From Rhizobium subbaraonis (GTDB lineage: Bacteria > Pseudomonadota > Alphaproteobacteria > Rhizobiales > Rhizobiaceae): a stretch of DNA of 64,000 bases. The notes beneath the pieces are model-generated. The model did not search any database and had not been told where the DNA came from. It saw only the letters and a program-made list of their open reading frames with translations. A program made the translations under genes and the position numbers. This document shows, one piece after another, positions 5,164 through 30,193 of the stretch. Every line of letters begins with the position of its first letter. The stretch's first letter is position 1. The stretch lies in NCBI RefSeq assembly GCF_900220975.1, contig NZ_OBQD01000012.1, positions 124,001-188,000 on the forward strand. Reading direction: 5' to 3'.

Positions 5164-6732
5164 ATGGCACTCGCAGCCAGCCTTCTTCTGCGGCAGAGCC
5201 AGTCTCTGGTCATGACGCCGCAACTGATGCAGTCGATCCAACTGCTGCAGATGACGCATCTCGAATTGACGCAGTTCATCGAGAGCGAGGTCGAGCGCAA
5301 TCCGCTTCTCGAGCTCACCGCAGGCGACGACGGAGCGCGCGGCGACGAGGCAGCGGCCTCGGACAATGACTATTATTCCGTCAATGAAGAGCGGTCCGGC
5401 CACGATGACGGTGCGGTCGACGGCGCCTATGCGAGCGATCTCTACGATACCGCGACGGCCGGCCGGGCCGAGGCCATTTCCGACACGCTCGACGCGAGCC
5501 TCGACAACGTCTTCCCCGACGATGCAGGGCCGCGCGCGGCCGATGCGCCGGAACTTCTCGGGCAGTGGAAGTCGATGCCCGGCGCCGCCGACGGCGAGGG
5601 TTACGATCTCGACGACTTCGTCGCCGGCCAGACCAGCCTGCGCGATTATCTGGGCGAACAGGTGCCCTTCACGCTCGCCTCGCCAGTCGACCGCCTCATC
5701 GCAAGCCACCTGATCGACCTGCTGGACGAGGCCGGATATCTGACGGCCAATATCGCCGAGACGGCCTTGAAGCTCGGCAAGCCACTTGCCGAGGTCGAGC
5801 GGGTGCTCGATGCGCTGCAGCAGCTCGACCCGCCGGGCGTGTTCGCCCGCTCGCTGGCCGAGTGCCTGGCGATCCAGCTGCGTGCGCGAAACCGCTTCGA
5901 TCCCGCGATGGCCGCACTGGTCGGCAACCTGGAACTCCTGGCACGGCGCGACTTCGCGACGCTGAAGCGACTGTGCGGCGTCGACGAGGAGGACCTCATC
6001 GACATGCTGGCGGAGATTCGCAAGCTGGACCCGAAGCCAGGCACCCGTTTCCAGCCCGGCGTCTCCGAGTCGGTCGTGCCCGATATCATCGTCCGTGCTG
6101 CTCCGGATGGCAGCTGGCACGTCGAGCTCAACCAGGAGACCCTGCCGCGCGTGCTTGTGAACAACGAATACTACGCCTCCGTATCGCGGCGCACGGAGCG
6201 GGCCAGCGAAGACCATGCCTTTCTCAACGAATGCCTGCAGAACGCGAACTGGCTGACACGGAGCCTGGACCAGCGCGCCAAGACCATCATGAAGGTCGCA
6301 ACCGAAATCGTACGCCAGCAGGACGCCTTCCTGATGCACGGCGTCGATCACCTCAGGCCGCTGAACCTGAAGACGGTCGCCGATGCGATCAAGATGCACG
6401 AATCCACCGTCAGCCGTGTGACGTCGAACAAGTACATGCTGACGCCGCGCGGCCTGTTCGAGCTGAAGTATTTCTTCACCGTATCGATCGGCTCTTCGGG
6501 CGGCGGCGAATCGCATTCCGCCGAATCGGTGCGCCACCGCATCCGCACGATGATCGCCCAGGAAGCGCCCGACGGCGTGCTCTCCGACGACGACATCGTC
6601 GATATCCTGAAAAAAGGCGGCGTCGACATTGCCCGGCGCACGGTGGCGAAGTACCGCGAGGCGATGAATATCCCCTCCTCCGTCCAGAGACGGCGGGAAA
6701 AGCGCGCGTTGGCGAAGGCTTCCGGCTTTTAG
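5164..6732 (+). CDS. rpoN: RNA polymerase sigma-54 factor
   Basis: This 522-residue protein has the Gln/Leu-rich activator-contact region I (LLLRQSQSLVMTPQLMQSIQ), acidic region II (about 50-130) and the core-binding domain. A helix-turn-helix follows (ESTVSRVTSNKYMLTP, about 420). The RpoN box ARRTVAKYRE, which reads the -24 element, lies near 490-499. It directs transcription of nitrogen assimilation, dicarboxylate transport and other activator-dependent genes. hpf and ptsN follow, the conserved rpoN cluster that links sigma-54, ribosome hibernation and the nitrogen PTS. Confidence 0.98.
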   Translation: MALAASLLLRQSQSLVMTPQLMQSIQLLQMTHLELTQFIESEVERNPLLELTAGDDGARGDEAAASDNDYYSVNEERSGHDDGAVDGAYASDLYDTATAGRAEAISDTLDASLDNVFPDDAGPRAADAPELLGQWKSMPGAADGEGYDLDDFVAGQTSLRDYLGEQVPFTLASPVDRLIASHLIDLLDEAGYLTANIAETALKLGKPLAEVERVLDALQQLDPPGVFARSLAECLAIQLRARNRFDPAMAALVGNLELLARRDFATLKRLCGVDEEDLIDMLAEIRKLDPKPGTRFQPGVSESVVPDIIVRAAPDGSWHVELNQETLPRVLVNNEYYASVSRRTERASEDHAFLNECLQNANWLTRSLDQRAKTIMKVATEIVRQQDAFLMHGVDHLRPLNLKTVADAIKMHESTVSRVTSNKYMLTPRGLFELKYFFTVSIGSSGGGESHSAESVRHRIRTMIAQEAPDGVLSDDDIVDILKKGGVDIARRTVAKYREAMNIPSSVQRRREKRALAKASGF

Positions 6733-7085
6733 ACTTTCGACCCAAATCGCTCGCCAGGAGCGCAACTTCACGCAATCGTGCACGCGACCTGAACCGGGCG
6801 TGACGATCCTCTTTAAGCCCGGCTGCTCACAGCATTTTCCGCCTCACGCGGCGGGGCGCCGCGGCACTCTGCGACGGCCCGGCATGCCAGGGTTGGATCG
6901 ATTTTTCGCCTGCGTCGTTATACCTGCCGACGAAAACGTGACGCGTGTCCTGCACCCGGCGCTGTTGACTCTCGGTAAAGGAACGGATAGATGCCCGCCC
7001 CAATTCCGAAGCGAAGACAGGCCGGTCCCAGAACCCCCGTTTTCCACGGTACGGCAGGCGAAAGGGTGTTGCTCGCGTGAAGTGC
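6733..7085. other. Gap between rpoN and hpf
   Basis: About 350 bases with no convincing gene. GC-rich inverted segments (around 6848-6862) could fold in RNA, but no clear rpoN terminator with a T-run was found. The candidate hpf promoter lies at its right end. Confidence 0.45.
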
Positions 7086-7114
7086 TTGGATGACGGGTCC
7101 GGTTGGAATAGACT
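7086..7114 (+). promoter_or_regulatory. Candidate hpf promoter
   Basis: TTGGAT (7086-7091) and TAGACT (7109-7114) are separated by 17 bases, and 34 bases separate the -10 from the hpf ATG. The match is moderate (4/6 in the -10). Confidence 0.4.
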
Positions 7115-7148
7115 GTGACACGCAAATCACAATGAGAGAGGAAACTCC

Positions 7149-7724
7149 ATGAGTGTGCGTGTATCCGGCAAACATATGGAAATCGGTGAAACCTTCCGAC
7201 TGCGAATTGAAGAGCAGATCGGATCGGCGGTTACCAAGTATTTCGATGGAGGATATTCGAGCCAGGTCACCGTGGAAAAGTCCGGTTCGCGATTTAGCGC
7301 CGACTGCAAGGTTCACCTCGATACCGGGGCGGCCCTGCAGGCCAACGGTGAGGCGAACGATCCGATTGTCGCTTTCGATGCGGCTTCCGATCGGATCGAA
7401 AAACGCCTCCGCCGCTACAAGCGCAAACTTAAGGATCATCATAACGGGAATGGTCATGACGCCTATGCGGAAGTGGCCTACACGGTGATGGACGCCGTCC
7501 CCGAAGATTCGGACGAACTCCCGGCCGACTATGCGCCGACCATCGTTGCGGAAAGCACGAAGACGCTCAAGACGATGTCTGTCGCCAGTGCCGTGATGGC
7601 ACTCGACATGACGGATGAACCGGTTCTTCTCTTTCGTAGTGTCGGCCAGGAACAGCTCAATATCGTCTACAGGCGAAACGACGGAAATATTGGCTGGATA
7701 GATGCAGCCAGTATCAAAAGCTAA
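7149..7724 (+). CDS. hpf: Ribosome hibernation-promoting factor, long form
   Basis: This 191-residue protein has an N-terminal S30AE domain (MSVRVSGKHMEIGETFRLRI, residues 1 to about 100). The C-terminal ribosome-dimerisation domain follows (DEPVLLFRSVGQEQLNIVYR, about 155-191). Long HPF joins two 70S ribosomes into inactive 100S particles in stationary or starved cells. The start has a GAGAGAGGAAAC ribosome binding site. Its position between rpoN and ptsN is conserved in proteobacteria. Confidence 0.95.
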   Translation: MSVRVSGKHMEIGETFRLRIEEQIGSAVTKYFDGGYSSQVTVEKSGSRFSADCKVHLDTGAALQANGEANDPIVAFDAASDRIEKRLRRYKRKLKDHHNGNGHDAYAEVAYTVMDAVPEDSDELPADYAPTIVAESTKTLKTMSVASAVMALDMTDEPVLLFRSVGQEQLNIVYRRNDGNIGWIDAASIKS

Positions 7725-7733
7725 GGTGGCAGG

Positions 7734-7761
7734 GGAAAGCGCCCGGGGCTGGGCGCTTTCC
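7734..7761 (+). terminator. Hairpin between hpf and ptsN
   Basis: Perfect 11-bp arms GGAAAGCGCCC (7734-7744) and GGGCGCTTTCC (7751-7761) flank a 6-base loop just after hpf. The following bases are only moderately T-rich (GCTTCATTCCTTTC). It may cause partial termination, leaving ptsN less expressed than hpf. Confidence 0.6.
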
Positions 7762-7799
7762 GCTTCATTCCTTTCACTGCGGCTCACGAGGACAAAAGA

Positions 7800-8264
7800 A
7801 TGGCATTGGCAGGTTTGCTGCAGCAGAGCGCAATTATCCCGGCTATGAAGGCCAATTCGAAGAAGCAGCTACTTCAGGAACTGGCAATAAAAGCGGCGAA
7901 ATTAACCGGACTTCCGGAGCGCGAGATATTCGACGTCATCCTCCAACGCGAGCGTCTCGGCTCGACGGGGGTCGGCAACGGTATCGCCATCCCGCATGGG
8001 AAGCTCAAGGAACTGGACCAGATCACCGGTCTTTTTGCCCGTCTTGAAACACCTGTGGACTTCGAGGCCCTGGACGACCAGCCGGTCGATCTCGTTTTCC
8101 TGCTGCTGGCGCCCGAAGGAGCGGGTGCCGATCATCTCAAGGCCTTGTCGCGCATCGCCCGCGTGCTGCGCGATCCCGCCATGGTGGCAAAGCTCAGGAC
8201 CTCGGATTCGGCGACGGCGATCTATGCCTGCCTGAACGAGGAACAGGCGTCCAACGCCGCCTGA
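7800..8264 (+). CDS. ptsN: Nitrogen-PTS EIIA component PtsN
   Basis: This 154-residue EIIA(Ntr) protein has the phospho-acceptor histidine in GIAIPHGK (His66) and the family motif PVDLVFLLLAPEG. In the nitrogen PTS, phosphate flows from EI(Ntr) through NPr to PtsN. PtsN controls potassium uptake, ABC transporters and stress responses by protein contact. The ATG at 7800 is used, and an internal ATG at 7845 is an alternative. It follows hpf by 75 bases and is followed by a strong terminator. Confidence 0.95.
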   Translation: MALAGLLQQSAIIPAMKANSKKQLLQELAIKAAKLTGLPEREIFDVILQRERLGSTGVGNGIAIPHGKLKELDQITGLFARLETPVDFEALDDQPVDLVFLLLAPEGAGADHLKALSRIARVLRDPAMVAKLRTSDSATAIYACLNEEQASNAA

Positions 8265-8393
8265 CGCGGCTCGGGCCGACGTGCCGGCACAAGGGAACGC
8301 CCGTGGCGTTTGTCCCTGTCTGACGCTATTGTGCATCCGCCTCTGCCCTCACCCTGCCGCCTGCCTTGCGGCGGCTGCGTGTAAGGAAACAGC

Positions 8394-8427
8394 AAAAACC
8401 GGCAGCCTTGTGGCGAGCCGGTTTTTT
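8394..8427 (+). terminator. Rho-independent terminator after ptsN
   Basis: Arms ACCGGC (8398-8403) and GCCGGT (8417-8422) are extended by A-run and T-run pairing, and a run of six T (8422-8427) follows. It lies 130 bases past the ptsN stop. Confidence 0.75.
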
Positions 8428-8498
8428 CATGCACGATGGCGGGCTTCGTTCCAGACAGACGAGATGACCTCCGGTCAGCGCGTCAGTTAGCGGTGACG

Positions 8499-8534
8499 AA
8501 AAAGCCCGGCAAGCGTGTGGCTGCCGGGCTTTTT
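8499..8534. terminator. Bidirectional terminator between ptsN and grpE
   Basis: Arms AAAAAGCCCGGC (8499-8510) and GCCGGGCTTTTT (8523-8534) are perfectly complementary, with flanking A and T runs that work on both strands. It mainly terminates grpE, whose stop codon is at 8557-8555. Confidence 0.8.
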
Positions 8535-8554
8535 GAATGCCGATAGAGCGTGCC

Positions 8555-9175
8555 TTAGCCTTGCTCGGGCTTGTCCGCTGCGGCGGCGGCCTTCGGGCCA
8601 CCCTTGGACACGCCGACCATTGCCGGACGCAGCACACGATCGCCGATCTTGTAGCCGTCCTGGACGACCTGGAGAACGGTCGCATTCGGCACCTCGGTGT
8701 TGGGCACCTCGAACATCGCCTGATGGAAGTTCGGATCGAACTTCTCGCCAATCGGCTCCAGCTTGCGGACGCCGTGACGCTCGAGTGCAGAAAGCATGGA
8801 GCGCTCGGTCATCTCGACACCCTCGATCAGCGCCATGAGGCCGGCATCGGCCGCCTCGCGCGCCTCGGCCGGAATGGCATCCAGGCCGCGGCGCAAGTTG
8901 TCGGAAACGGCCAGCATGTCGCGGGCAAAGCCGGCGATCGCATAAGACTTCGCATCCTTCACGTCGCGCTCGGTACGCCGGCGCAGATTGTCCATCTCGG
9001 CCGCCAGGCGCAGATACCTGTCGCGAAGGTCGGCATTTTCCGCCTTCAGGAGTTCGACGGGATCGGCCGCGCCTTCGGCGCCCTGTTCCGTCTGGCTGGT
9101 TTCGGGCGACACAGCGGCGCTTTCGGCCTCGTCATTCGGGGCCTCGGGGGCGTGCTTGCTCGTATCGTCGGTCAT
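8555..9175 (-). CDS. grpE: Nucleotide exchange factor GrpE
   Basis: This 206-residue GrpE has an acidic, low-complexity N-terminus (about 1-40) and a long coiled-coil (about 40-95, including [20 protein letters not shown]). The C-terminal beta domain carries [13 protein letters not shown] and [21 protein letters not shown]. It releases ADP from DnaK during refolding. The start has GGAGAAACCG in front. It lies downstream of hrcA with its own promoter-like site at 9352-9380. Confidence 0.97.
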
Positions 9176-9351
9176 CGGTTTCTCCGGCTTGAGAAATCAC
9201 ACATGTCGCGGAGCGCTCCCGCCCTGCGGCCATGCATGGGTTGATGGGTCAAAGCGACCTGCCGCTACCTCTCGGCTGGGCGGCGCTCACGTGTTCCCGC
9301 AAGGTCCGTGCCGCCCAACGGCGCCCGGGCAAATGACGGGAGTTGAGGCGG

Positions 9352-9380
9352 ATATCGAGCTTCGCACCGAAAAAATCAAG
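9352..9380 (-). promoter_or_regulatory. Candidate grpE promoter, possibly heat-shock type
   Basis: On the minus strand CTTGAT (9380-9375), a 17-base spacer and CGATAT (9357-9352) resemble both the alphaproteobacterial housekeeping consensus and the RpoH -35 CTTG element. The leader to the grpE start would be about 170 bases. No CIRCE element was found here. Confidence 0.5.
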
Positions 9381-9416
9381 GCTCATTGGAAAACTCATCC
9401 GCCGGTCGGCGGCGCA

Positions 9417-10499
9417 TCAGCGCGAAAGCTGGGACATCAACTGTGCAGTATAGTCCACCATCGGCACGATCCGCGAATAATTCAGCCGCGTCGGGCCAAT
9501 CACCCCGACAGCACCGACGATGCGCTCGTCGCTGTCGCGATAGGGCGCGACGATCAGCGACGAGCCCGAAAGCGAAAACAGCTTGTTTTCCGAGCCGATG
9601 AAGATGCGGACGCCCGGCCCGCTTTCGGCGAGGTTCAGGAGCTGGATCAGGCTGTCCTTCTTTTCCAGGTCGTCGAACAGCATCCGAAGCCGATCGACGT
9701 CCTCGGCACCGGCAAGCCCCTCCAGCAGGTTTGCGCGGCCGCGAACGATCAACCGGGTGGGCTTGGTTTCCTCCTCATCGCCGCCGGACCACACCGCAAG
9801 GCCGCGCTCGACGAGATCCTGCGACAGCGCGTCCAGCTCGCCGCGCACCTGCTGGCGCAGCCTTTCGAGCTTGGTGCGCGCCTCGAATATCGTGTTGCCC
9901 GCCAGATGGGCGTTCAGGAAGTTCGCCGCCTCGGTCAACTGCGAGTTGGTCGTTCCCGCTGGCAGCTCGATGATGCGGTTCTCCACCTGGTCATGGTCGC
10001 CGACGAGCACGACCAGCGCCTTGGTCGGTTCCAGCCGGATGAACTCCACGTGCTTGAGCACCGTATCGTTCTTCGCCGTGATGACGATGCCGGCGCCGCG
10101 CGACATGCCCGACAGCATGCGGCTCGCCTCGGCCATCATCGTCTCGACGCTCTGGCCGTGGCTGGGACGATGGACATGCCGGTCGATCGACGCCCGATCC
10201 TCCTCGGAGACCTTGCCGACCTGCATGAAGGCATCGACGAAAAAGCGTAGGCCCAGTTGCGTCGGCAGACGGCCGGCGCTGACATGCGGAGAATAGATCA
10301 GGCCAAGCGCCTCGAGGTCGCTCATGACGTTGCGAACCGAAGCCGGCGACAGCGACATCGGCAGGATGCGGGAGAGATTGCGCGAGCCGAGCGGCTCGCC
10401 GTGCTCCAGATAGCTCTCGACGATCCGGCGGAAAATCTCGCCGGCGCGCTCGTCCAGCGCCGCATATACGTCCGTGTCCGCGGGAGTCCTCAGTACCAT
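9417..10499 (-). CDS. hrcA: Heat-shock repressor HrcA
   Basis: A 360-residue protein is read from the ATG at 10499. A winged-helix N-terminus ([33 protein letters not shown]) is followed by a GAF-like domain and the C-terminal segment [19 protein letters not shown]. HrcA represses groESL and sometimes grpE-dnaK by binding CIRCE, with GroEL as its thermosensor partner. The frame continues upstream to 10565, but that extension has no family resemblance. It is divergent from rph, with a 14-bp palindrome between them. Confidence 0.95.
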
Positions 10500-10595
10500 G
10501 CCGATCGAACAAACCTTCTCATTGACCTCAATATAGGGGCTGCCCACCGTGCCGCACAAGCACATTCGCCTGCAAGCGCGGTGGAAGAGCGCCCG

Positions 10596-10609
10596 CGAAA
10601 TCGATTTCG
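10596..10609. promoter_or_regulatory. 14-bp perfect palindrome between hrcA and rph
   Basis: CGAAATCGATTTCG is self-complementary and lies 97 bases upstream of hrcA and 61 bases upstream of rph. It is not a CIRCE (TTAGCACTC-N9-GAGTGCTAA). It could be a regulator site for either gene or a chance palindrome. Confidence 0.3.
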
Positions 10610-10669
10610 ATTCTCGGTCTTATGCGCTAGAAGCACCGCAGACCTCAAAGATGAACAACGGAGTACGCG

Positions 10670-11386
10670 ATGCGGCCGTCAGGCAGAAAGACCGACCAGA
10701 TGCGCAAGGTCACCTTCGAGCGCAATTTTTCCAAGCATGCGGAGGGTTCCTGTCTGGTAAAATTTGGCGACACGCATGTGCTGTGCACCGCAAGCCTTGA
10801 GGAAAAGACGCCGCCGTGGCTGCGCAACAGCGGCAAAGGCTGGGTAACGGCCGAGTACGGCATGCTGCCGCGCGCCACCGGCGAGCGCATGAGGCGCGAG
10901 GCGGCAGCCGGCAAGCAGGGCGGGCGCACCCAGGAGATCCAGCGCCTGATCGGCCGGTCGCTGCGCGCAATCGTCGATCTGACCGCGCTCGGCGAGCGCC
11001 AGATCACCATCGACTGCGACGTCATCCAGGCGGACGGCGGCACACGCACGGCATCGATCACCGGCGCCTGGATCGCCCTGCACGACTGCCTGAAATGGAT
11101 GGAGACGCGCAGCATGATCAAGGTCGACAAGGTGCTGAAGGACCATATCGCCGCCATCTCCTGCGGCATCTTTGCCGACCAGGCGGTGATCGACCTCGAC
11201 TACCTCGAGGATTCGGCTGCCGAAACCGATGCAAACTTCGTCATCACCGGCTCGGGCGGCATCGTCGAGATCCAAGGCACGGCCGAGGGCAAGCCCTTCA
11301 CGGAAGAAGAGTTCGCCAGCCTGATGGGTCTTGCCAAGACCGGCATCGCCGAGCTTGTCGAGATGCAGAAGCAGGCAGTCGCCTGA
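10670..11386 (+). CDS. rph: Ribonuclease PH
   Basis: This 238-residue phosphorolytic 3'-5' exoribonuclease trims tRNA precursors. It begins [20 protein letters not shown] and includes [39 protein letters not shown] (the phosphate and active-site region) and [18 protein letters not shown]-type segments near 180-200. Length equals the family norm. A ribosome binding site CGGAG precedes the ATG. rph-rdgB-hemW order is usual in rhizobia, and here a VOC gene is inserted between rph and rdgB. Confidence 0.97.
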
Positions 11387-11543
11387 GAGGCCGGCCCCAG
11401 TTCCTCTTCGCGAGGGCAGAAGCGCTGAGGCGGTGAGGGTCCAGAGGATTGCGGCGCATGCGGAGCGCATCTCTCTTGCCTTGACCCTGCGGCATCTTGC
11501 CCCCACCCGGGGGTGAGATGCCGCAGGGCCGCGGAACTTCTCC

Positions 11544-11580
11544 CTTGCCCCTCACCTGCCCTTCGGGCACCCTTTCCCTT
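11544..11580 (-). repeat. Interspersed palindromic repeat, diverged inverted copy 2
   Basis: TTGCCCCTCACCTGCCC and GGGCACCCTTTCCC match the reverse complement of the tail seen in copies 1 and 3 (TGAGGGG, GGCAGG, GGGGA..GG). The whole 11387-11647 spacer is GC-rich and holds further partial inverted segments (CCCACCCGGGGGTG near 11506). The hairpin is decayed relative to copy 3. Confidence 0.4.
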
Positions 11581-11647
11581 GGAGGCAGAGAGGCGCCGGC
11601 GGCACCTCTCAGCCTCCCCGGAAAGACGCGAGGCGGGAGAAACATAG

Positions 11648-12088
11648 ATGGCCGATCCGGACAACCTCCTCGCCGGCATCCTCGAGACCGCGCTCTACGC
11701 AGAGAACCTCGACGCGGCCGAAGCCTTCTATGGCGGCCTGCTTGGCCTTGAGAAAATCACGCGACAGGCGAACCGCCATGTCTTCTTCCGCTGCGGGCCC
11801 GGCGTCCTTCTGATCTTCAATCCGAAGGAGACCGTGGTGCCGCCGCCCCCGCAGGCTTTTCCCGTGCCCGTGCACGGAATGACGGGACAAGGCCATGTCT
11901 GTTTTCGCGCATCGGCCACGGCGCTTGATTTCTGGGTGGAAAAGCTGAAAGAAGCAGATGTCGCCATCGAGGCGGATTTCCGCTGGCCGAATGGCGCCCG
12001 CTCCATCTATTTCCGTGATCCCGCCGGAAACAGCCTCGAATGCGCCGAACCCGGCCTCTGGGGCCTCAACCCTGGCGACCCGACCTGA
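11648..12088 (+). CDS. VOC-family (glyoxalase/dioxygenase fold) protein
   Basis: This 146-residue protein has the paired beta-alpha-beta-beta-beta modules of the vicinal oxygen chelate superfamily. One is [20 protein letters not shown] (residues 10-30) and the second is near [20 protein letters not shown]. It ends [16 protein letters not shown], whose glutamate is a usual metal ligand. Substrate cannot be assigned. The stop is 11 bases before rdgB, so the two are probably co-transcribed. A GGGAGA ribosome binding site precedes the ATG. Confidence 0.88.
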
Positions 12089-12099
12089 CAGGAACAGAC

Positions 12100-12744
12100 A
12101 TGCGCAAGCTCGATACCCGTACGATCGTCGTGGCCAGCCACAATGCCGGCAAGATCCGCGAAATCCGCGATCTGATCGGCCCGCTCGGTTTCGAGGCCAG
12201 GTCGGCCGCCGACCTGAACTTCGTCGAACCGGACGAGACGGGCACGACATTCGAGGAGAACGCGGCTATCAAGGCGCTGGCGTCGGCCAAGGCTGCCGGC
12301 ATGCCTGCCCTCTCGGACGATTCGGGAATCGTCATCGATGCGCTCGGCGGCGCACCCGGCGTCTACACCGCCAACTGGGCAGAAAAGGAAGACGGCAGCC
12401 GCGACTTCGCCATGGCGATGGAGAAAGTCGAAAACGCGCTGGGCGAGAAAGGGGCTACGGCACCGGCCGATCGCACCGCCCGCTTCGTATCCGTCCTCTG
12501 CCTTGCCTGGCCGGACGGGCATACCGAGATGTTCCGCGGCGAGATCGACGGTACCGTCGTCTGGCCGCCGCGTGGCAGCCAGGGCTTCGGCTATGATCCG
12601 ATCTTCCAGCCGGAAGGCCACACGGTCACGTTTGGCGAGATGAGTGCTGAGGAAAAGCACGGCTGGAAGCCCGGCGAGGCCCAGGCGTTGTCGCACCGCG
12701 CCCGCGCCTTCAAGCGTTTCGTCGAAACCTGCCTGGAAGCGTAG
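12100..12744 (+). CDS. rdgB: dITP/XTP pyrophosphatase
   Basis: This 214-residue HAM1/RdgB-family enzyme removes inosine and xanthosine triphosphates from the nucleotide pool. It shows [17 protein letters not shown] (nucleotide-binding N-terminus), [30 protein letters not shown] and [15 protein letters not shown]. The ATG at 12100 follows an ACAGGAACAGAC spacer, and an upstream in-frame start at 12040 would overlap the VOC gene. hemW follows after 8 bases. Confidence 0.97.
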
Positions 12745-20906: not shown

Positions 20907-21117
20907 TAAAAACTTACGCTTTTTGCTCCTTCCGCGCTGCACCGCAACGCGCGGTGCCTTCCGCGTGTGCCAAAATGGTTCAACCGATATTCCGGTTGCA
21001 TCGTCGGCAATTACGCGGACTAATGCCACGCGAAACCGATCGTCGACGGGAGGAGAACCGATCCAGCAGCACGCATGCATCATGACTGATTCCCATCATG
21101 AAATGGAGCACGTGACT

Positions 21118-22914
21118 ATGCAGCGAAATGATCACGACGACAGACCCAATAGCGAGCGCGCACTCAGCCGCCGCGACCTTCTGCTTGCGGGGAGCGCACT
21201 GACCGCCGCATCTCTGGTGGTGCCTTCGGCGGCGAATGCCCAAACGCAATCACAGGATCAACAGCAGCCGTCCACGGCATCCGGCAAGCCCAACATCCTC
21301 GTCATCTTCGGCGACGACATCGGGATCGCCAACATCAGCGCCTACACGCACGGCCTGATGGGCTACCCCACGCCGAATATCGACCGCGTCGCCAGCGAGG
21401 GTCTGATGTTCCTCCACTACTATGCCGAACAATCCTGCACGGCGGGCCGGGCGGCCTTCCTGACCGGACAGCACGGCATCCGCACCGGCCTGACAAAGGT
21501 CGGCTTTCCCGGCGCGCCGATGGGCATGAGCCAGCTCGATCCCTCGATCGGCGGGCTGCTGAAGAACCTCGGCTATGCAACCGGACAGTTCGGCAAGAAC
21601 CATGTGGGCGACCGCAACGAGACATTGCCGACGGTGAACGGCTTCGACGAATTCTTCGGCAATCTCTATCACCTCAACGCCGAGGAGGAGCCGGAACTGC
21701 CGGACTATCCGAAAGACCCCGCTTACCTGGCCAAGTTCGGCCCGCGCGGCGTCTTGCGCTGCAAGGCGACCGACGTCGACGATCCGACCGAGGATCCGCG
21801 CTTCGGCCGCGTCGGCAAGCAGACGATCGAGGACACCGGCGCGCTTACGAAGAAACGCATGGAGACGATCGACGACGAGACCTCTGCGGCAGCGATCGAT
21901 TTCATGAAGCGGCAGCAGACCGCCGGCCAGCCCTTCTTCTGCTGGTTCAATTCCACGCGGATGCACCTGCGCACCCATGTGCGCGACAGCCACCGCGGCC
22001 GCTACCAGCACGGCGACAGCGAATACATCGACGGCATGATGGAGCATGACGACACGGTCGGCACGCTGCTGCAGGCGCTGGACGACATGGGGGTGACGAA
22101 CGACACCCTCGTCCTCTACACCACCGACAACGGCCCGCACATGAACACCTGGCCGGACGGCGCGATGACCTGGTTCCGCTCGGAGAAGAACACCAACTGG
22201 GAAGGCGCCTTCCGCGTACCATGCTTCGTGCGCTGGCCGGGCGTCATCGAGCCGGGGACGGTGACGAACGAACTGATGAGTCACAACGACTGGGTGCCGA
22301 CGCTCTGCGCGATCGCCGGCGAGCCGCAGATCGTCGAAAAGCTGAAGGCGGGTTATACCGCCAACGGACTGAACTACAAGGTACACCTGGACGGCTACGA
22401 CCAGTCGACGTTCCTGCGCACCGTACGCGGGACGGCGACCGTCAACAACGGCGTCAAGAGCGCCCGCGACAAGTTCTTCTATTCCGACGACGACGGGCTG
22501 CTGGTAGCCATGCGGCACGGCGACTACAAGTACGTCTTCTCCGAGCAGCGCAAGGAAGGGACCATGGGGGTCTGGGCGGAACCCTTCACCACGCTGCGGC
22601 TGCAGAAGATCTTCAACCTCTATCAGGATCCGTTCGAACGCGCCGACATCACCTCCAATACGTTCTGGGATTGGCAGCTCAACCACGTCGGCAGCGCCTA
22701 TGGGATGATGGACGACGTCTTCACGTTCGTGGCGACGTTCAAGGACTTCCCGCCTCGCTCCTTCCCGCCGAGCTTCAATCCCGCCAACGTGATGGAATCG
22801 ACGCTCGACGGCATCAAGCGCAGGGAGGCGTTGAAGCAGAACCTCGATCTCGAGCGCATCCGCGGCGGCCTCAACAACATGCTCGACGACGTGCTGCAGC
22901 ACCGCGCGCAGTAA
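21118..22914 (+). CDS. Tat-exported arylsulfatase-family protein
   Basis: This 598-residue sulfatase is read from the ATG at 21118. A twin-arginine signal SRRDLLLAGSALTAA (residues 17-31) with cleavage near AANAQ suggests folded export to the periplasm. The metal-site start ILVIFGDDIG, the modification motif C-T-A-G-R (Cys107, CxAxR type) and YTTDNGPH are all present. The cysteine would need oxidation to formylglycine by a separate enzyme, which is not encoded in this window. Upstream ATGs (21082 and earlier) would lengthen the region before the signal. The substrate is unknown. The gene sits between ubiB and coaBC with the ion channel gene. Confidence 0.88.
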   Translation: MQRNDHDDRPNSERALSRRDLLLAGSALTAASLVVPSAANAQTQSQDQQQPSTASGKPNILVIFGDDIGIANISAYTHGLMGYPTPNIDRVASEGLMFLHYYAEQSCTAGRAAFLTGQHGIRTGLTKVGFPGAPMGMSQLDPSIGGLLKNLGYATGQFGKNHVGDRNETLPTVNGFDEFFGNLYHLNAEEEPELPDYPKDPAYLAKFGPRGVLRCKATDVDDPTEDPRFGRVGKQTIEDTGALTKKRMETIDDETSAAAIDFMKRQQTAGQPFFCWFNSTRMHLRTHVRDSHRGRYQHGDSEYIDGMMEHDDTVGTLLQALDDMGVTNDTLVLYTTDNGPHMNTWPDGAMTWFRSEKNTNWEGAFRVPCFVRWPGVIEPGTVTNELMSHNDWVPTLCAIAGEPQIVEKLKAGYTANGLNYKVHLDGYDQSTFLRTVRGTATVNNGVKSARDKFFYSDDDGLLVAMRHGDYKYVFSEQRKEGTMGVWAEPFTTLRLQKIFNLYQDPFERADITSNTFWDWQLNHVGSAYGMMDDVFTFVATFKDFPPRSFPPSFNPANVMESTLDGIKRREALKQNLDLERIRGGLNNMLDDVLQHRAQ

Positions 22915-26082: not shown

Positions 26083-26336
26083 AGGCTCAACTCGCTTGGC
26101 TGCCGGCCATAGCGGCCGAAGGGACGAATGCATGCATGTGCTGGTGTCAGAATCATCGAAAATGGGTAAAAATGCGTTAACGAAAGTAAATTTCCGGAAA
26201 CCATGTTCGCTCCTCCAGTCACGACGGGAGCACCGCGCGACATCCCCTCTCAGGCGTACTTGCCCGGCGAGGGCTTTGCCGGCGCCTGTCGTGTGCTTCA
26301 ACAGCTTTTCGGGATGGCGGGAGACCCGGACTTGGC

Positions 26337-26365
26337 TGGACAAGGTGAAGATGCGGGTATTTAAT
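26337..26365 (+). promoter_or_regulatory. Promoter of the DUF1326-DUF2182 pair
   Basis: TGGACA (26337-26342, 5/6 to consensus), a 17-base spacer and TTTAAT (26360-26365, 5/6) form a strong housekeeping-type promoter. The -10 box lies inside the left half of the palindrome at 26357-26383, so a bound protein would block transcription. The rest of the 26083-26336 spacer shows no gene. Confidence 0.65.
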
Positions 26366-26383
26366 TAGCAATCAATTAAATAC
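26357..26383. promoter_or_regulatory. Perfect palindromic operator before the DUF1326 gene
   Basis: Arms GTATTTAATT (26357-26366) and AATTAAATAC (26374-26383) are perfectly complementary around a 7-base centre. The site covers the -10 box and the predicted start of transcription and ends 16 bases before the ATG. AT-rich inverted repeats of this size are typical of ArsR-, MarR- or TetR-family repressors. No regulator gene is adjacent. Confidence 0.7.
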
Positions 26384-26399
26384 GGCTTCGGAGGGCGTC

Positions 26400-27038
26400 A
26401 TGGCGAACGTCGAGTGGAAGCTTCAGGGACGCGAGTTCATTCACTGCAATTGCGCCTACGGATGCCCGTGCCAGTTCAACGCGCTGCCGACGCACGGCAC
26501 TTGTTATGCGGTCGGTGCGATCGACATCGAAGATGGTTTTCACGGCGAAACCCGGCTCGACGGGTTGCGGATCGCCATGATCGTCGCATGGCCCGGCGCG
26601 ATCCACGAGGGCGGCGGCCAATGCGTGCCGATCGTCGACGAGCGGGCGACGCCGCAACAGCGCGAAGCGCTCTTGCGCATCATGAGCGGAGAGGACACCG
26701 ATCCGGGCGCGACCTTCTTCGCCGTCTTCGCCACCACCTTCGCTACGGTACACGACCCGGTTTTCAGCCGGATCGACTTCGATCTGGACATCGACGCTCG
26801 CACCGCCCGGATCGTCATCCCCGGATGGATGGATACGCGTGGCGAGCCCATCCGCAATCCCGTGACGGGAGAAGACCACCGCGCCCGCATCACCCTGCCG
26901 CACGGGTTCGAATACGACACATGCGAGGTGGGGCGCGGCTGGGCGGAGACGAAGGGACCGATCGAGCTCTCGCTTGCCGACAGCCACGCCCATTTCAGCA
27001 GGCTGCACATGACCGGCGCCGGCGTCGTCCACGGCTGA
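26400..27038 (+). CDS. DUF1326-family protein with N-terminal Cys cluster
   Basis: This 212-residue protein of the uncharacterised DUF1326 family has no signal peptide or membrane helix. Near its N-terminus lies HCNCAYGCPCQF, with Cys16, Cys18, Cys22 and Cys24, plus Cys35 in THGTCY. This is a likely metal or redox site. The ATG has a strong CGGAGGG ribosome binding site. It is separated by 6 bases from the DUF2182 gene. Both would be read from the palindrome-controlled promoter. Biochemical function is unknown. Confidence 0.9.
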   Translation: MANVEWKLQGREFIHCNCAYGCPCQFNALPTHGTCYAVGAIDIEDGFHGETRLDGLRIAMIVAWPGAIHEGGGQCVPIVDERATPQQREALLRIMSGEDTDPGATFFAVFATTFATVHDPVFSRIDFDLDIDARTARIVIPGWMDTRGEPIRNPVTGEDHRARITLPHGFEYDTCEVGRGWAETKGPIELSLADSHAHFSRLHMTGAGVVHG

Positions 27039-27044
27039 AACATC

Positions 27045-28073
27045 ATGGGAGACCCAGCACTCGAAAGGCTGCTCAAGCGCGACCGGGCAATCGTCGCCGT
27101 GTGCCTGGTTGTCATGACGGTGCTAGCCTGGCTCTACCTGCTCTCGCTCGCCCGATCCATGGGCGCGGCCCACGTGCCGGTGAACGGCGCGGGCACCATG
27201 GAAGGCATGCCGGGAATGGAGGATATGCCGGGGATGGACATGTCGGGTATGCAGACCTCCGACGTGGCGCCGGCGGGATGGAACTCGGACAATACGGTGC
27301 TCGTGGTCGCCATGTGGTTCGTGATGATGGTCGGTATGATGCTGCCGTCAGCCGCGCCGATGATTCTCCTCTATGCCCGGGTGGGGCGCCATGCGAGCGC
27401 GAAGGGGGCCCCCTTTGCGGCAACCGGCGTGTTCTGCGCCGGCTATCTTGCAGTCTGGTTCCTGTTTTCGCTCGCAGCGACGCTGGCACAGTGGATATTG
27501 GAGCAGGCGGTGCTGATCACGCCGATGCTGGACAGCGCGAGCCCCCTTCTCAGCGCAGCCCTTCTGATCACGGCCGGGCTCTACCAATGGACACCGCTGA
27601 AGAGCGCATGCCTCGGCAAGTGCCGCGCGCCGGCCGCCTTCCTGCAGGCCGCCGGCGGCTTCAGGCGCGATGCGGCCGGTGCGTTTCTCATGGGCATGCG
27701 CCACGGCGCCTACTGCGTCGGCTGCTGCTGGCCGCTGATGCTGCTGCTGTTCGTCGGCGGGGTGATGAACATCCTGTGGATCGCCGTGATCGCAATCTTC
27801 GTGCTGGCGGAGAAGCTTCTGCCCGGCGGCGACCGCATGGGCCGCGCCGCTGGCGTCGTTCTGATAGCCGCCGGCGCATGGCTGATGCTGCGCGGGATGG
27901 CGCACGCGGAACCGCTGCAGCGGCTGTCGCTGGCGGCTCTCGGCATGAAAACACCCGCGTGGATCAAATACCACGCGGGCGTCCACGATCTTCTTCCTTC
28001 GACTACGCCGGAGCAGCCGACAAAGGCGGCGATGAGGGGCCTCACGCCGCCTTGGCGACGTGATACTCCTTGA
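27045..28073 (+). CDS. DUF2182 predicted metal-binding membrane protein with Met-rich loop
   Basis: This 342-residue multi-helix membrane protein has a first helix at about residues 16-38. A loop with seven methionines between residues 52 and 69 (MEGMPGMEDMPGMDMSGM) follows and resembles copper-binding Met motifs. WFVMMVGMMLPSAAPMILLY is the DUF2182 hallmark, and SACLGKC and YCVGCCW are paired Cys motifs in or near helices. The last 50 or so residues are polar and run over a hairpin (27954-27979) and the end of prfC (32-bp overlap). This looks like an extension past the normal family end. The metal role is inferred, not shown. Confidence 0.88.
   Translation: MGDPALERLLKRDRAIVAVCLVVMTVLAWLYLLSLARSMGAAHVPVNGAGTMEGMPGMEDMPGMDMSGMQTSDVAPAGWNSDNTVLVVAMWFVMMVGMMLPSAAPMILLYARVGRHASAKGAPFAATGVFCAGYLAVWFLFSLAATLAQWILEQAVLITPMLDSASPLLSAALLITAGLYQWTPLKSACLGKCRAPAAFLQAAGGFRRDAAGAFLMGMRHGAYCVGCCWPLMLLLFVGGVMNILWIAVIAIFVLAEKLLPGGDRMGRAAGVVLIAAGAWLMLRGMAHAEPLQRLSLAALGMKTPAWIKYHAGVHDLLPSTTPEQPTKAAMRGLTPPWRRDTP
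27954..27979 (-). terminator. prfC terminator hairpin inside the DUF2182 reading frame
   Basis: Arms CCCGCGTGG (27954-27962) and CCACGCGGG (27971-27979) form a perfect 9-bp stem. On the minus strand TGTTTTC follows, about 60 bases past the prfC stop. The plus-strand side has only ATACCA-type sequence in the loop and no T-run, so it serves mainly prfC. Confidence 0.6.
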
Positions 28074-29625
28074 TCGCTGCCATCTTTATCGCCGGATAGC
28101 GCTCGGCCTCGTAGCGCAGCGAGAACGCGTCCTGCGCCAGGAACACCGGGTCGCCGTCGAGATCGCGGGCGATGTCGCCACGCCGCGCGGTGACGAACTT
28201 GTCCAGGTCAACGGGACTGTCGGCCGAGATCCAGCGGCAGACGGAGAAGCGCGACATCTCGAAAGACACCGGCAGACCGTATTCCGCCTGCAGGCGCTCC
28301 TTCAGCACGTCGAGCTGCAGCGCGCCGACAACGCCGACGATCGCAGGCGAACCGTCCTCCGGTGAAAACAGCTGCACGACGCCCTCTTCGGCCATCTGCT
28401 GCAGGGCTTCCTTCAGCTTCTTCGCCTTCATCGCGTCCTCGAGGCGGACGCGGCGCAGGATTTCCGGCGAGAAGTTCGGTACGCCCTCGAAGACCAGCGC
28501 CTCGCCCTCGGTCAGCGTATCGCCGATGCGCAGCGTGCCGTGGTTCGGAATGCCGACCACGTCGCCGGCATAGGCCGTATCGGCAAGCTGGCGCTGCGAG
28601 GCGAAGAAGAACTGCGGCGCGGTGAGACCAAGCTGCTTTCCAGTGCGCGACAGCCGCGCCTTCATGCCGCGCTCCAGCTTGCCGGAGCAGACGCGGGCGA
28701 AGGCGATGCGGTCGCGGTGGTTCGGGTCCATGTTCGCCTGGATCTTGAACACGAAGGCAGTCATCTTGTCTTCGGCAGCATGCACGGTGCGGGTGTCGGC
28801 AACCTGGTCGCGCGGCGGCGGGGCAAAGGCACCGAGCGCATTGATGAGGTCGCGCACGCCGAAATTGCGCAAGGCCGAGCCGAAGAAAACGGGTGTCAGG
28901 TGGCCTTCGAGGAAAGCCTTCTTATCGAACGGCTTGCAGGCCTCGATCGCCAGGGAAAGCTCGTCGACAAACGCCGCGCGCTCGTTTTCCGGCAGCCGAT
29001 GCGAGGCCGTCTCCGGATCGTTGACGCGGGTCAGGCGTTCTTGCGTATCCGAGCCGCGCACCTCGTTGGTGGAGAGGTGGTAGGAGCCGCAGAAGGTCTT
29101 CGAGCGGCCGATCGGCCAGGTCACCGGCGCGCAATCGAGCGCCAGCTTCTCCTCGACCTCGTCCAGGATCTCGAAGGGATCGCGGCTCTCGCGGTCCATC
29201 TTGTTGACGAAGGTGATGATCGGGATGTCGCGCATGCGGCAGACCTCGAACAGCTTCAGCGTCCGCGGCTCGATACCCTTTGCCGCGTCGATGACCATGA
29301 CAGCCGCGTCGACCGCCGTCAGCGTGCGGTAGGTGTCGTCGGCGAAGTCCTCGTGGCCGGGCGTGTCGAGAATGTTGAAGACATTGCCTTCATATTCGAA
29401 CGTCATCACCGAGGTCACGACCGAGATGCCGCGCTCGCGCTCGATCTTCATCCAGTCCGAGCGGGTCTGGATGCGGTCCTTCTTGGCCTTGACCTCGCCG
29501 GCGAGCTGGATCGCGCCGCCGAACAGCAGCAGCTTTTCGGTCAGCGTCGTCTTGCCCGCGTCCGGGTGGGCGATAATAGCAAAGGTGCGGCGGCGGGAGA
29601 CCGCCTCGGCGAGACTTTCTGCCAT
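28042..29625 (-). CDS. prfC: Peptide chain release factor RF3
   Basis: This 527-residue translational GTPase removes RF1 and RF2 after peptide release. G1 is AHPDAGKTT, then RERGISVVTSV, G3 DTPGHEDF and G4 NKMD. The C-terminal domain is complete. The ATG at 29625 gives MAESLAEAVSRRRTFAIIAH, and the frame open to 29907 has no family similarity. It is divergent from dut and overlaps the 3' end of the DUF2182 gene by 32 bases tail to tail. Confidence 0.97.
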   Translation of the reverse strand: MAESLAEAVSRRRTFAIIAHPDAGKTTLTEKLLLFGGAIQLAGEVKAKKDRIQTRSDWMKIERERGISVVTSVMTFEYEGNVFNILDTPGHEDFADDTYRTLTAVDAAVMVIDAAKGIEPRTLKLFEVCRMRDIPIITFVNKMDRESRDPFEILDEVEEKLALDCAPVTWPIGRSKTFCGSYHLSTNEVRGSDTQERLTRVNDPETASHRLPENERAAFVDELSLAIEACKPFDKKAFLEGHLTPVFFGSALRNFGVRDLINALGAFAPPPRDQVADTRTVHAAEDKMTAFVFKIQANMDPNHRDRIAFARVCSGKLERGMKARLSRTGKQLGLTAPQFFFASQRQLADTAYAGDVVGIPNHGTLRIGDTLTEGEALVFEGVPNFSPEILRRVRLEDAMKAKKLKEALQQMAEEGVVQLFSPEDGSPAIVGVVGALQLDVLKERLQAEYGLPVSFEMSRFSVCRWISADSPVDLDKFVTARRGDIARDLDGDPVFLAQDAFSLRYEAERYPAIKMAAIKEYHVAKAA

Positions 29626-29722
29626 GTCGTGAAAATCCTGTTGATCGCGCGCTATGTAACGGTTCCGTGGAAAACTTTCAATTCGCGTTTGACCCGGACA
29701 GCAGCCGATCCGCAAATGGGGG

Positions 29723-30193
29723 ATGAACATCCGACACGCTCCCCACCCGACCCTGAACCTCGTCCGCCTGCCGCATGGCGCCGGCCTCGATCTGCCGGCG
29801 TACGAAACGGCCGGCGCTGCCGGCATGGACCTGCGCGCCGCGGTCGAGACCGGCGAGACGCTGGTGCTTGCCCCGGGCAGCCGCGCGCTGGTGCCGACCG
29901 GCTTCATCTTCGAGATACCGGAGGGCTACGAGGCACAGATCCGCCCACGCTCCGGCCTCGCCTTCAAGCACGGCATTACCTGCCTGAATACGCCCGGCAC
30001 GATCGATAGCGACTATCGCGGCGAAGTGAAGGTGCTGCTGGTCAACCTCGGTGCGGCGGATTTCGTCATCGATCGCGGCATGCGCATCGCCCAGATGGTG
30101 ATCGCGCCGGTCGTGCAGGCGCAGGTGCGCGAGGTGACGGAGGCGGGCGCGACCGAGCGGGGTGCGGGCGGCTTCGGTTCGACCGGGGTCTAA
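29723..30193 (+). CDS. dut: dUTP diphosphatase
   Basis: This 156-residue trimeric dUTPase has the five motifs visible: [38 protein letters not shown] and the C-terminal arm [10 protein letters not shown]. It keeps uracil out of DNA and supplies dUMP. The start ATG has GGGG just before it. The acetyltransferase gene follows after 14 bases and is probably co-transcribed. Confidence 0.97.

Follow-up and report, generated by a model that had tools for sequence, protein, structure and literature searches.

The locus considered here raises the question of what two adjacent genes, one for a soluble cysteine-rich protein and one for a membrane protein rich in methionine and cysteine, do for the cell. 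It lies within a stretch of 64,000 nucleotides from Rhizobium subbaraonis, referred to as the window in the following. The original prediction described the pair as a palindrome-controlled DUF1326-DUF2182 operon and as a likely undescribed metal-handling system. To our knowledge, the entry of copper into the bacterial cytosol and its delivery to enzymes have been described for few systems only. The genes and their immediate surroundings are represented by the following features:

26390 to 26394, + strand: ribosome-binding site GGAGG, as read by eye, its position relative to the start codon being our own reading
26400 to 27038, + strand: DUF1326 gene (212 amino acids; PF07040, E = 9.8e-53; structure model with pLDDT 93.1)
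27045 to 28073, + strand: gene for a membrane protein of the PpoB2 family, formerly DUF2182 (342 amino acids; PF09948, E = 1.8e-66; structure model with pLDDT 76.5, i.e., of moderate confidence)
27906 to 28073, + strand: C-terminal extension specific to the window's PpoB2 reading frame, reaching approximately 40-50 residues beyond the end of the 34 other aligned sequences

The two reading frames are located on the + strand and separated by 6 bases, as proposed originally, and this spacing, together with a common upstream promoter, suggests that they are co-transcribed. Upstream, the neighboring gene on the opposite strand matches families of class-II glutamine amidotransferases. Downstream, an opposite-strand reading frame (28042-29907), which we take to be prfC based on its sequence, overlaps the PpoB2 reading frame by 32 bases; the C-terminal extension crosses a hairpin (27951-27982) and enters the 3' end of this opposite frame. 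The DNA between the PpoB2 gene and the opposite gene is longer in the window than in the orthologous loci L051-L054. A known RNA element was ruled out, since an Rfam scan of positions 26200-28200 returned nothing at the gathering threshold. Rhizobium rhizolycopersici is the closest named relative, its two proteins being 93% and 92% identical to those of the window, and Mycoplana falls into the group nearest to the window's pair in the tree.

Both family assignments were unambiguous, with 179.3 bits for PF07040 (curated cut-off 25; full-length match) and 224.1 bits for PF09948 (curated cut-off 28.7). Pfam lists DUF1326 (PF07040/COG5588) as a family of unknown function, and PF09948 currently carries the name 'PpoB2, Copper chaperone'. 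According to passages of the review PMC2855505, the only publication on COG5486 found in the open-access literature searched, PpoB2 of Marinomonas mediterranea belongs to a tyrosinase operon, transfers copper specifically to tyrosinase and was the first COG5486 protein with an assigned physiological role. The view that both families are of unknown function thus has to be abandoned for PF09948/COG5486. Likewise, the term 'undescribed' is no longer appropriate for the family of the membrane protein, which is a named copper chaperone, and remains valid for DUF1326; a described function was found neither for DUF1326 nor for the DUF1326-linked class of PpoB2 in the open-access literature searched.

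Conserved pairing of the two families in other genomes had been named beforehand as a check on the original prediction, and such pairing was found. Among 61 relatives, DUF1326 was detected in 18 and PpoB2 in 24 genomes, all of the 18 being included in the 24; in one relative (G054), the two genes reside on separate contigs. In a set of 299 genomes drawn across the phylum Pseudomonadota, DUF1326 occurred in 31 genomes and PpoB2 above the cut-off in 35 (of 37 at E ≤ 0.001), and all 31 genomes encoding DUF1326 were among these 35 (P = 4e-38). Within this set, 41 out of 45 DUF1326 matches were situated no more than 1.5 kb from a PpoB2 gene on the same strand, the other four being apart, and only 5 out of 46 PpoB2 matches above the cut-off lacked an adjacent DUF1326 gene. 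DUF1326 comes first in 24 and PpoB2 in 17 of the 41 adjacent pairs. Adjacency preserved in both gene orders represents strong evidence of joint function, and the association of the two families is genuine and ancient. In the collection of named loci, which leans towards the window's PpoB2 class because it was collected with the window's PpoB2 as the query, DUF1326 lies directly upstream of PpoB2 in 35 of 41 loci; two of the six loci without an upstream DUF1326 gene (L089 and L090) start near a contig end. Besides Pseudomonadota, the pair was detected in Acidobacteriota, Chloroflexota, Omnitrophota, Planctomycetota, Nitrospirota and Verrucomicrobiota, these six phyla being represented by metagenome-assembled genomes.

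A third conserved gene beside the pair was rejected for the 60 clusters listed, where nothing recurred beyond near relatives except a response-regulator-type reading frame, present in 5 of 41 loci among these clusters. No copper-homeostasis gene recurred among 149 neighboring reading frames, as judged from the 25 of 164 families listed; the scan covered 149 of 158 frames, those left out being one from L096 and every frame from L126 and L127. Two plasmid loci deserve mention. On plasmid pHG1 of Cupriavidus necator H16, a small gene for a GDCCVxC domain-containing (seleno)protein follows directly after the DUF1326-DUF2182 pair (L091, 7464-7691). On plasmid p_1 of Sinorhizobium meliloti, a DUF1326 gene (L092, 6001-6636), whose product is approximately 39% identical to that of the window, has no annotated PpoB2 gene within 6 kb, and DUF1326 genes similar to it are found on many Sinorhizobium plasmids.

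The residues that may bind a metal were evaluated in alignment A1 (DUF1326; the window and 30 of 35 loci of the named collection) and alignment A2 (PpoB2; the window and 34 of 41 loci):

26445 to 26504, + strand: codons of the five DUF1326 cysteines C16, C18, C22, C24 and C35, invariant in 31/31 sequences
27198 to 27251, + strand: Met-rich loop MEGMPGMEDMPGMDMSGM of PpoB2, residues 52-69, predicted to be extracytoplasmic (7 Met in 18 residues; net charge -3.8)
27324 to 27341, + strand: MMxxMM in transmembrane helix 2, residues 94-99 (M94 34/34, M95 32/34, M98 34/34, M99 35/35)
27609 to 27623, + strand: CLGKC (CLxxC), residues 189-193, in a loop predicted to be cytosolic (C189 and C193 35/35; loop net charge +3.0)
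27714 to 27728, + strand: CVGCC (CxxCC) in transmembrane helix 5, residues 224-228 (C224, C227 and C228 35/35)

The C-x-C-x3-C-x-C cluster reported for the first protein is present as C16/C18/C22/C24, and the five cysteines are common to the window and its 30 relatives. The fifth, C35, had been overlooked and is more conserved than the Met loop of PpoB2. No signal peptide was seen by eye in DUF1326. Its AlphaFold model displays only a weak fold likeness to acetoacetate decarboxylase (Foldseek E = 5e-5, TM approximately 0.4), and a profile search of the PDB returned nothing useful, that is, no sequence relative of known structure.

For PpoB2, the loop with seven methionines as well as the CLGKC and CVGCC motifs were all found as described. 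Nine residues are invariant in the 35 sequences, namely C189, C193, C224, C227, C228, W229, M232, M241 and M99. The loop keeps its Met content, varying in sequence and length: 33 of 35 sequences contain 2-12 Met between the first transmembrane helix and W79, nearly the whole region is missing in L086 and L087, and a Cys occurs inside it in L065, L068, L079, L081, L082 and L085. MMxxMM, which the original prediction had missed, is conserved more strongly than this loop. The mean charge pattern fits an external Met loop combined with a cytosolic N-terminus and a cytosolic CLxxC loop. Taken together, the conserved ligands and the charge topology point to a ladder of ligands spanning the membrane, and the proposal of a two-gene unit with soft-metal ligands is supported by the pairing and the invariant Cys and Met residues. 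Met-rich Cu(I) proteins of the Cop/Pco and Ctr types appear to resemble the window's PpoB2 in having a Met-rich extracytoplasmic segment and Met within a membrane helix. In contrast to these proteins, PpoB2 had no match of use in sequence and profile searches of the PDB, and PF09948, matched by all 35 members of the alignment, was the only Pfam family found to be common to them. Foldseek with the PpoB2 model yielded no useful solved fold (best E = 0.71).

The most likely reading, to which a probability of roughly 0.45 is assigned, is that DUF1326 and PpoB2 act as a Cu(I) relay from the periplasm to a cytosolic carrier. PpoB2 would take up copper at the periplasmic face via its Met-rich loop, and the metal would cross the membrane via MMxxMM in helix 2 and CxxCC in helix 5 to reach CLxxC on the cytosolic side. 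The soluble five-cysteine DUF1326 protein would then receive copper from CLxxC and deliver it to copper-using cytosolic proteins. Copper as the metal, its inward flow and DUF1326 as its acceptor are inferred; copper is suggested because PF09948 includes the class of proteins to which copper transfer is ascribed in Marinomonas. A ladder of this kind is usable in both directions, and DUF1326 might instead gather excess cytosolic copper that PpoB2 passes outward to the Met-rich loop. However, no energy-coupling domain was found, PF09948 being the sole family match, and no resistance cluster was present among the neighbor families listed or in eight annotated plasmid stretches, which makes such export or detoxification improbable.

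How far the copper role can be carried over from Marinomonas depends on the relationship between the PpoB2 classes. Like Marinomonas PpoB2, the window's protein is a member of PF09948 and a membrane protein with metal-ligand residues, and the gene of a soluble partner is adjacent. Unlike the former, which is part of a tyrosinase operon, it has DUF1326 as its partner, and the window's genome had no match to tyrosinase (PF00264). In three genomes (G010, G169 and G254), in which DUF1326 was not found, a low-scoring PpoB2 gene is immediately preceded by a tyrosinase gene. These three PpoB2 proteins group in a single clade with support 99, set on a long branch, and CLxxC is missing from two of them (G254 and G010). 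The window's PpoB2 is placed outside this clade and is thus set apart from the three tyrosinase-linked proteins found here, the Marinomonas sequence itself being outside the comparison. A copper role for the window's protein is therefore carried over a deep split, given that the tyrosinase-linked class occupies a separate long branch and has fewer cysteines. Tyrosinase was rejected as a client of the pair, as it is lacking in the window's genome and shows no association with DUF1326 in the 299 genomes (3/31 versus 18/268, P = 0.37). A clean division of PpoB2 by partner fails as well. All four PpoB2 genomes without DUF1326 in the set of 299 encode tyrosinase, but this applies to only one of six such genomes among the 61 relatives, the other five having neither partner family, and the solitary PpoB2 proteins L085 and L129 branch in the tree among the DUF1326-linked sequences.

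The role reported for Marinomonas PpoB2 also suggests an explanation in which the pair is the dedicated copper-loading chaperone of a single enzyme, with a client other than tyrosinase, e.g., SBP56. The window's genome encodes SBP56, and SBP56 was detected in 15 of 31 DUF1326 genomes versus 8 of 268 others (23 genomes counted, of 26 at E ≤ 0.001); by genus, the association amounts to 12/19 versus 7/135. Nitrile hydratase, taken as an unrelated control, was likewise enriched (18/31 versus 24/268), its 42 counted genomes being those of 45 that remained when the weak matches G143 and G190 were excluded from an over-cut-off tally of 44. The SBP56 association nevertheless persisted when stratified by nitrile hydratase (odds ratio 7.9, P = 4e-5). 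Both SBP56 proteins read, that of the window's genome included, start without an obvious signal peptide as judged by eye, so that a cytosolic carrier could reach them. On the other hand, SBP56 is missing from 16 of the 31 DUF1326 genomes, lies inside only one of 75 pair loci and, in the window's genome, sits on a contig different from that of the pair. As described in passages of PMC5739008, the characterized SBP56 of Hyphomicrobium is a copper-dependent periplasmic methanethiol oxidase with SCO1 and MauG genes adjacent; the window's SBP56 differs in this respect, with neither gene among the neighbors scanned. Because the control was enriched too, SBP56 as a proven client was ruled out, its link to the pair is a lead and not a result, and a chaperone dedicated to one enzyme appears rather unlikely.

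One genomic context connects the pair with dimethylsulfoniopropionate (DMSP), the demethylation of which by the DmdA pathway leads to methanethiol. In family f38, probably Rhodobacteraceae given its likeness to Marinovum, genes for DmdA, a YhdH/AcuI-like reductase and a GntR-FCD regulator reside in the same 11-kb stretch as the pair in all seven loci fetched (of eight genomes with a match, G266 being left out). DmdA of Marinovum and of the four f38 loci scanned scored above the NCBIfam equivalog cut-off for DMSP demethylase, and the three other f38 assignments are based on 77-82% identity. The corresponding cluster of Marinovum algicola also holds SBP56, in favor of the latter as a client, and its PpoB2 and DUF1326 were named by the depositors as involved in DMSP breakdown; no paper on a link between DmdA and the pair was found in the literature searched for related terms. 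Given this neighborhood, the cysteine clusters might carry sulfane sulfur or methanethiol-derived thiols instead of a metal. However, the DmdA context is restricted to 8 of 75 pair loci (L096 at 5803-12445, L111, L112, L113, L115, L116, L117 and L128), which fall on a single branch of the tree (support 74; 85 when L110 is included), and does not extend to the window. Furthermore, it is hard to see what the Met-rich loop and the near-invariant MMxxMM would contribute to carrying sulfur, and sulfur or thiol handling is accordingly regarded as quite improbable in comparison with the Cu(I) relay.

Control of the pair was predicted to involve a perfect inverted repeat over the promoter, and such a repeat does overlap the -10 region:

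26337 to 26342, + strand: -35 element TGGACA, present in the window and in 10/10 Rhizobiaceae-type orthologous promoters (L050-L058 and L073)
26357 to 26383, no strand assigned: perfect inverted repeat GTATTTAATT-N7-AATTAAATAC with 10-bp arms
26360 to 26365, + strand: -10 element TTTAAT within TATTTAATTA, 17 bases after the -35 element
26364 to 26379, + strand: match to the NolR consensus (A/T)TTAG-N9-A(T/A) inside the palindrome, the sole match on either strand of the window

The promoter call is based on conservation in orthologues, since a strict sigma-70 scan of positions 26100-28150 listed no promoter. TATTWAATTA was found in nine of the ten Rhizobiaceae-type orthologous promoters, L054 being the exception, and the Chelativorans promoter (L062) has neither this element nor TGGACA. 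The 25-base core of the repeat occurs once in the window, once in the 6.58-Mb genome (spacers of 5-9 bases allowed) and in none of 100 shuffles of the window. In total, the window contains seven centers of perfect 10-bp inverted repeats, compared with a mean of 1.95 and a maximum of 5 in 20 Markov resamples, and of the seven, the promoter repeat alone is AT-rich (81% A+T). In the same register, 8 of 10 arm positions match in the closest relative, 6-7 in five orthologous promoters, 5-6 in L051-L053 and 2 in L054. Six of the ten orthologous promoters reached P < 0.05 for the dyad in a letter-shuffle test, the sequences being related to each other. Among these ten, the left part of the promoter is conserved and the right arm is not, and the perfect repeat was seen only in the window's genome. 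Of 151 family genomes, 3 contain the composite element TGGACA-N15-TATTWAATTA, each with a single copy, located upstream of the DUF1326-PpoB2 operon. A palindrome regulon is ruled out by these counts, and the metal-sensing regulator proposed to act through the repeat is putative, given the poor conservation of the dyad and a promoter element that defines no regulon.

The regulator may instead be NolR, the single concrete candidate to emerge. Its consensus was taken from passages of PMC12445080, which count 308 such sites in S. meliloti. Seven of eleven promoters, including those of the window and the diverged L054, contain the consensus, which is missing from L051, L052, L053 and L057; letter-shuffled promoters matched in 2.4% of cases. 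A stricter form of the motif, (A/T)TTAG-N8-GA(T/A)G, was present in 0 of 11 promoters. The window's genome encodes NolR (L136), with NolR 4omy as the best PDB match (E = 2e-37) and a recognition region identical to that of the solved protein. The match is partly post hoc, since NolR was the sole regulator compared, and binding of NolR rather than a metal sensor to this promoter is possible, if somewhat doubtful. In Mycoplana dimorpha (L054), a different palindrome, ATTAGATTTTTCTAAT, with the NolR consensus on both strands is located upstream of position 5349.

It is speculative, and improbable as a whole, that the pair represents a widespread, undescribed route of Cu(I) uptake and hand-off that feeds copper-dependent enzymes of cytosolic thiol metabolism (SBP56-type methanethiol oxidases), joined the DMSP cluster in one alphaproteobacterial family and is controlled by NolR in rhizobia. 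Seven phyla harbor the module, both of its proteins carry invariant soft-metal ligands, and copper transfer has already been linked to one family member. If the Cu(I) relay were confirmed, DUF1326 would gain a function, the annotation 'copper chaperone' would divide into at least two classes, and copper supply might be connected to the metabolism of DMSP and methanethiol. As a separate observation, a gene of the sulfatase family (PF00884, E = 9e-47) is located on the + strand at 20923-22914, a few kb upstream of the pair.
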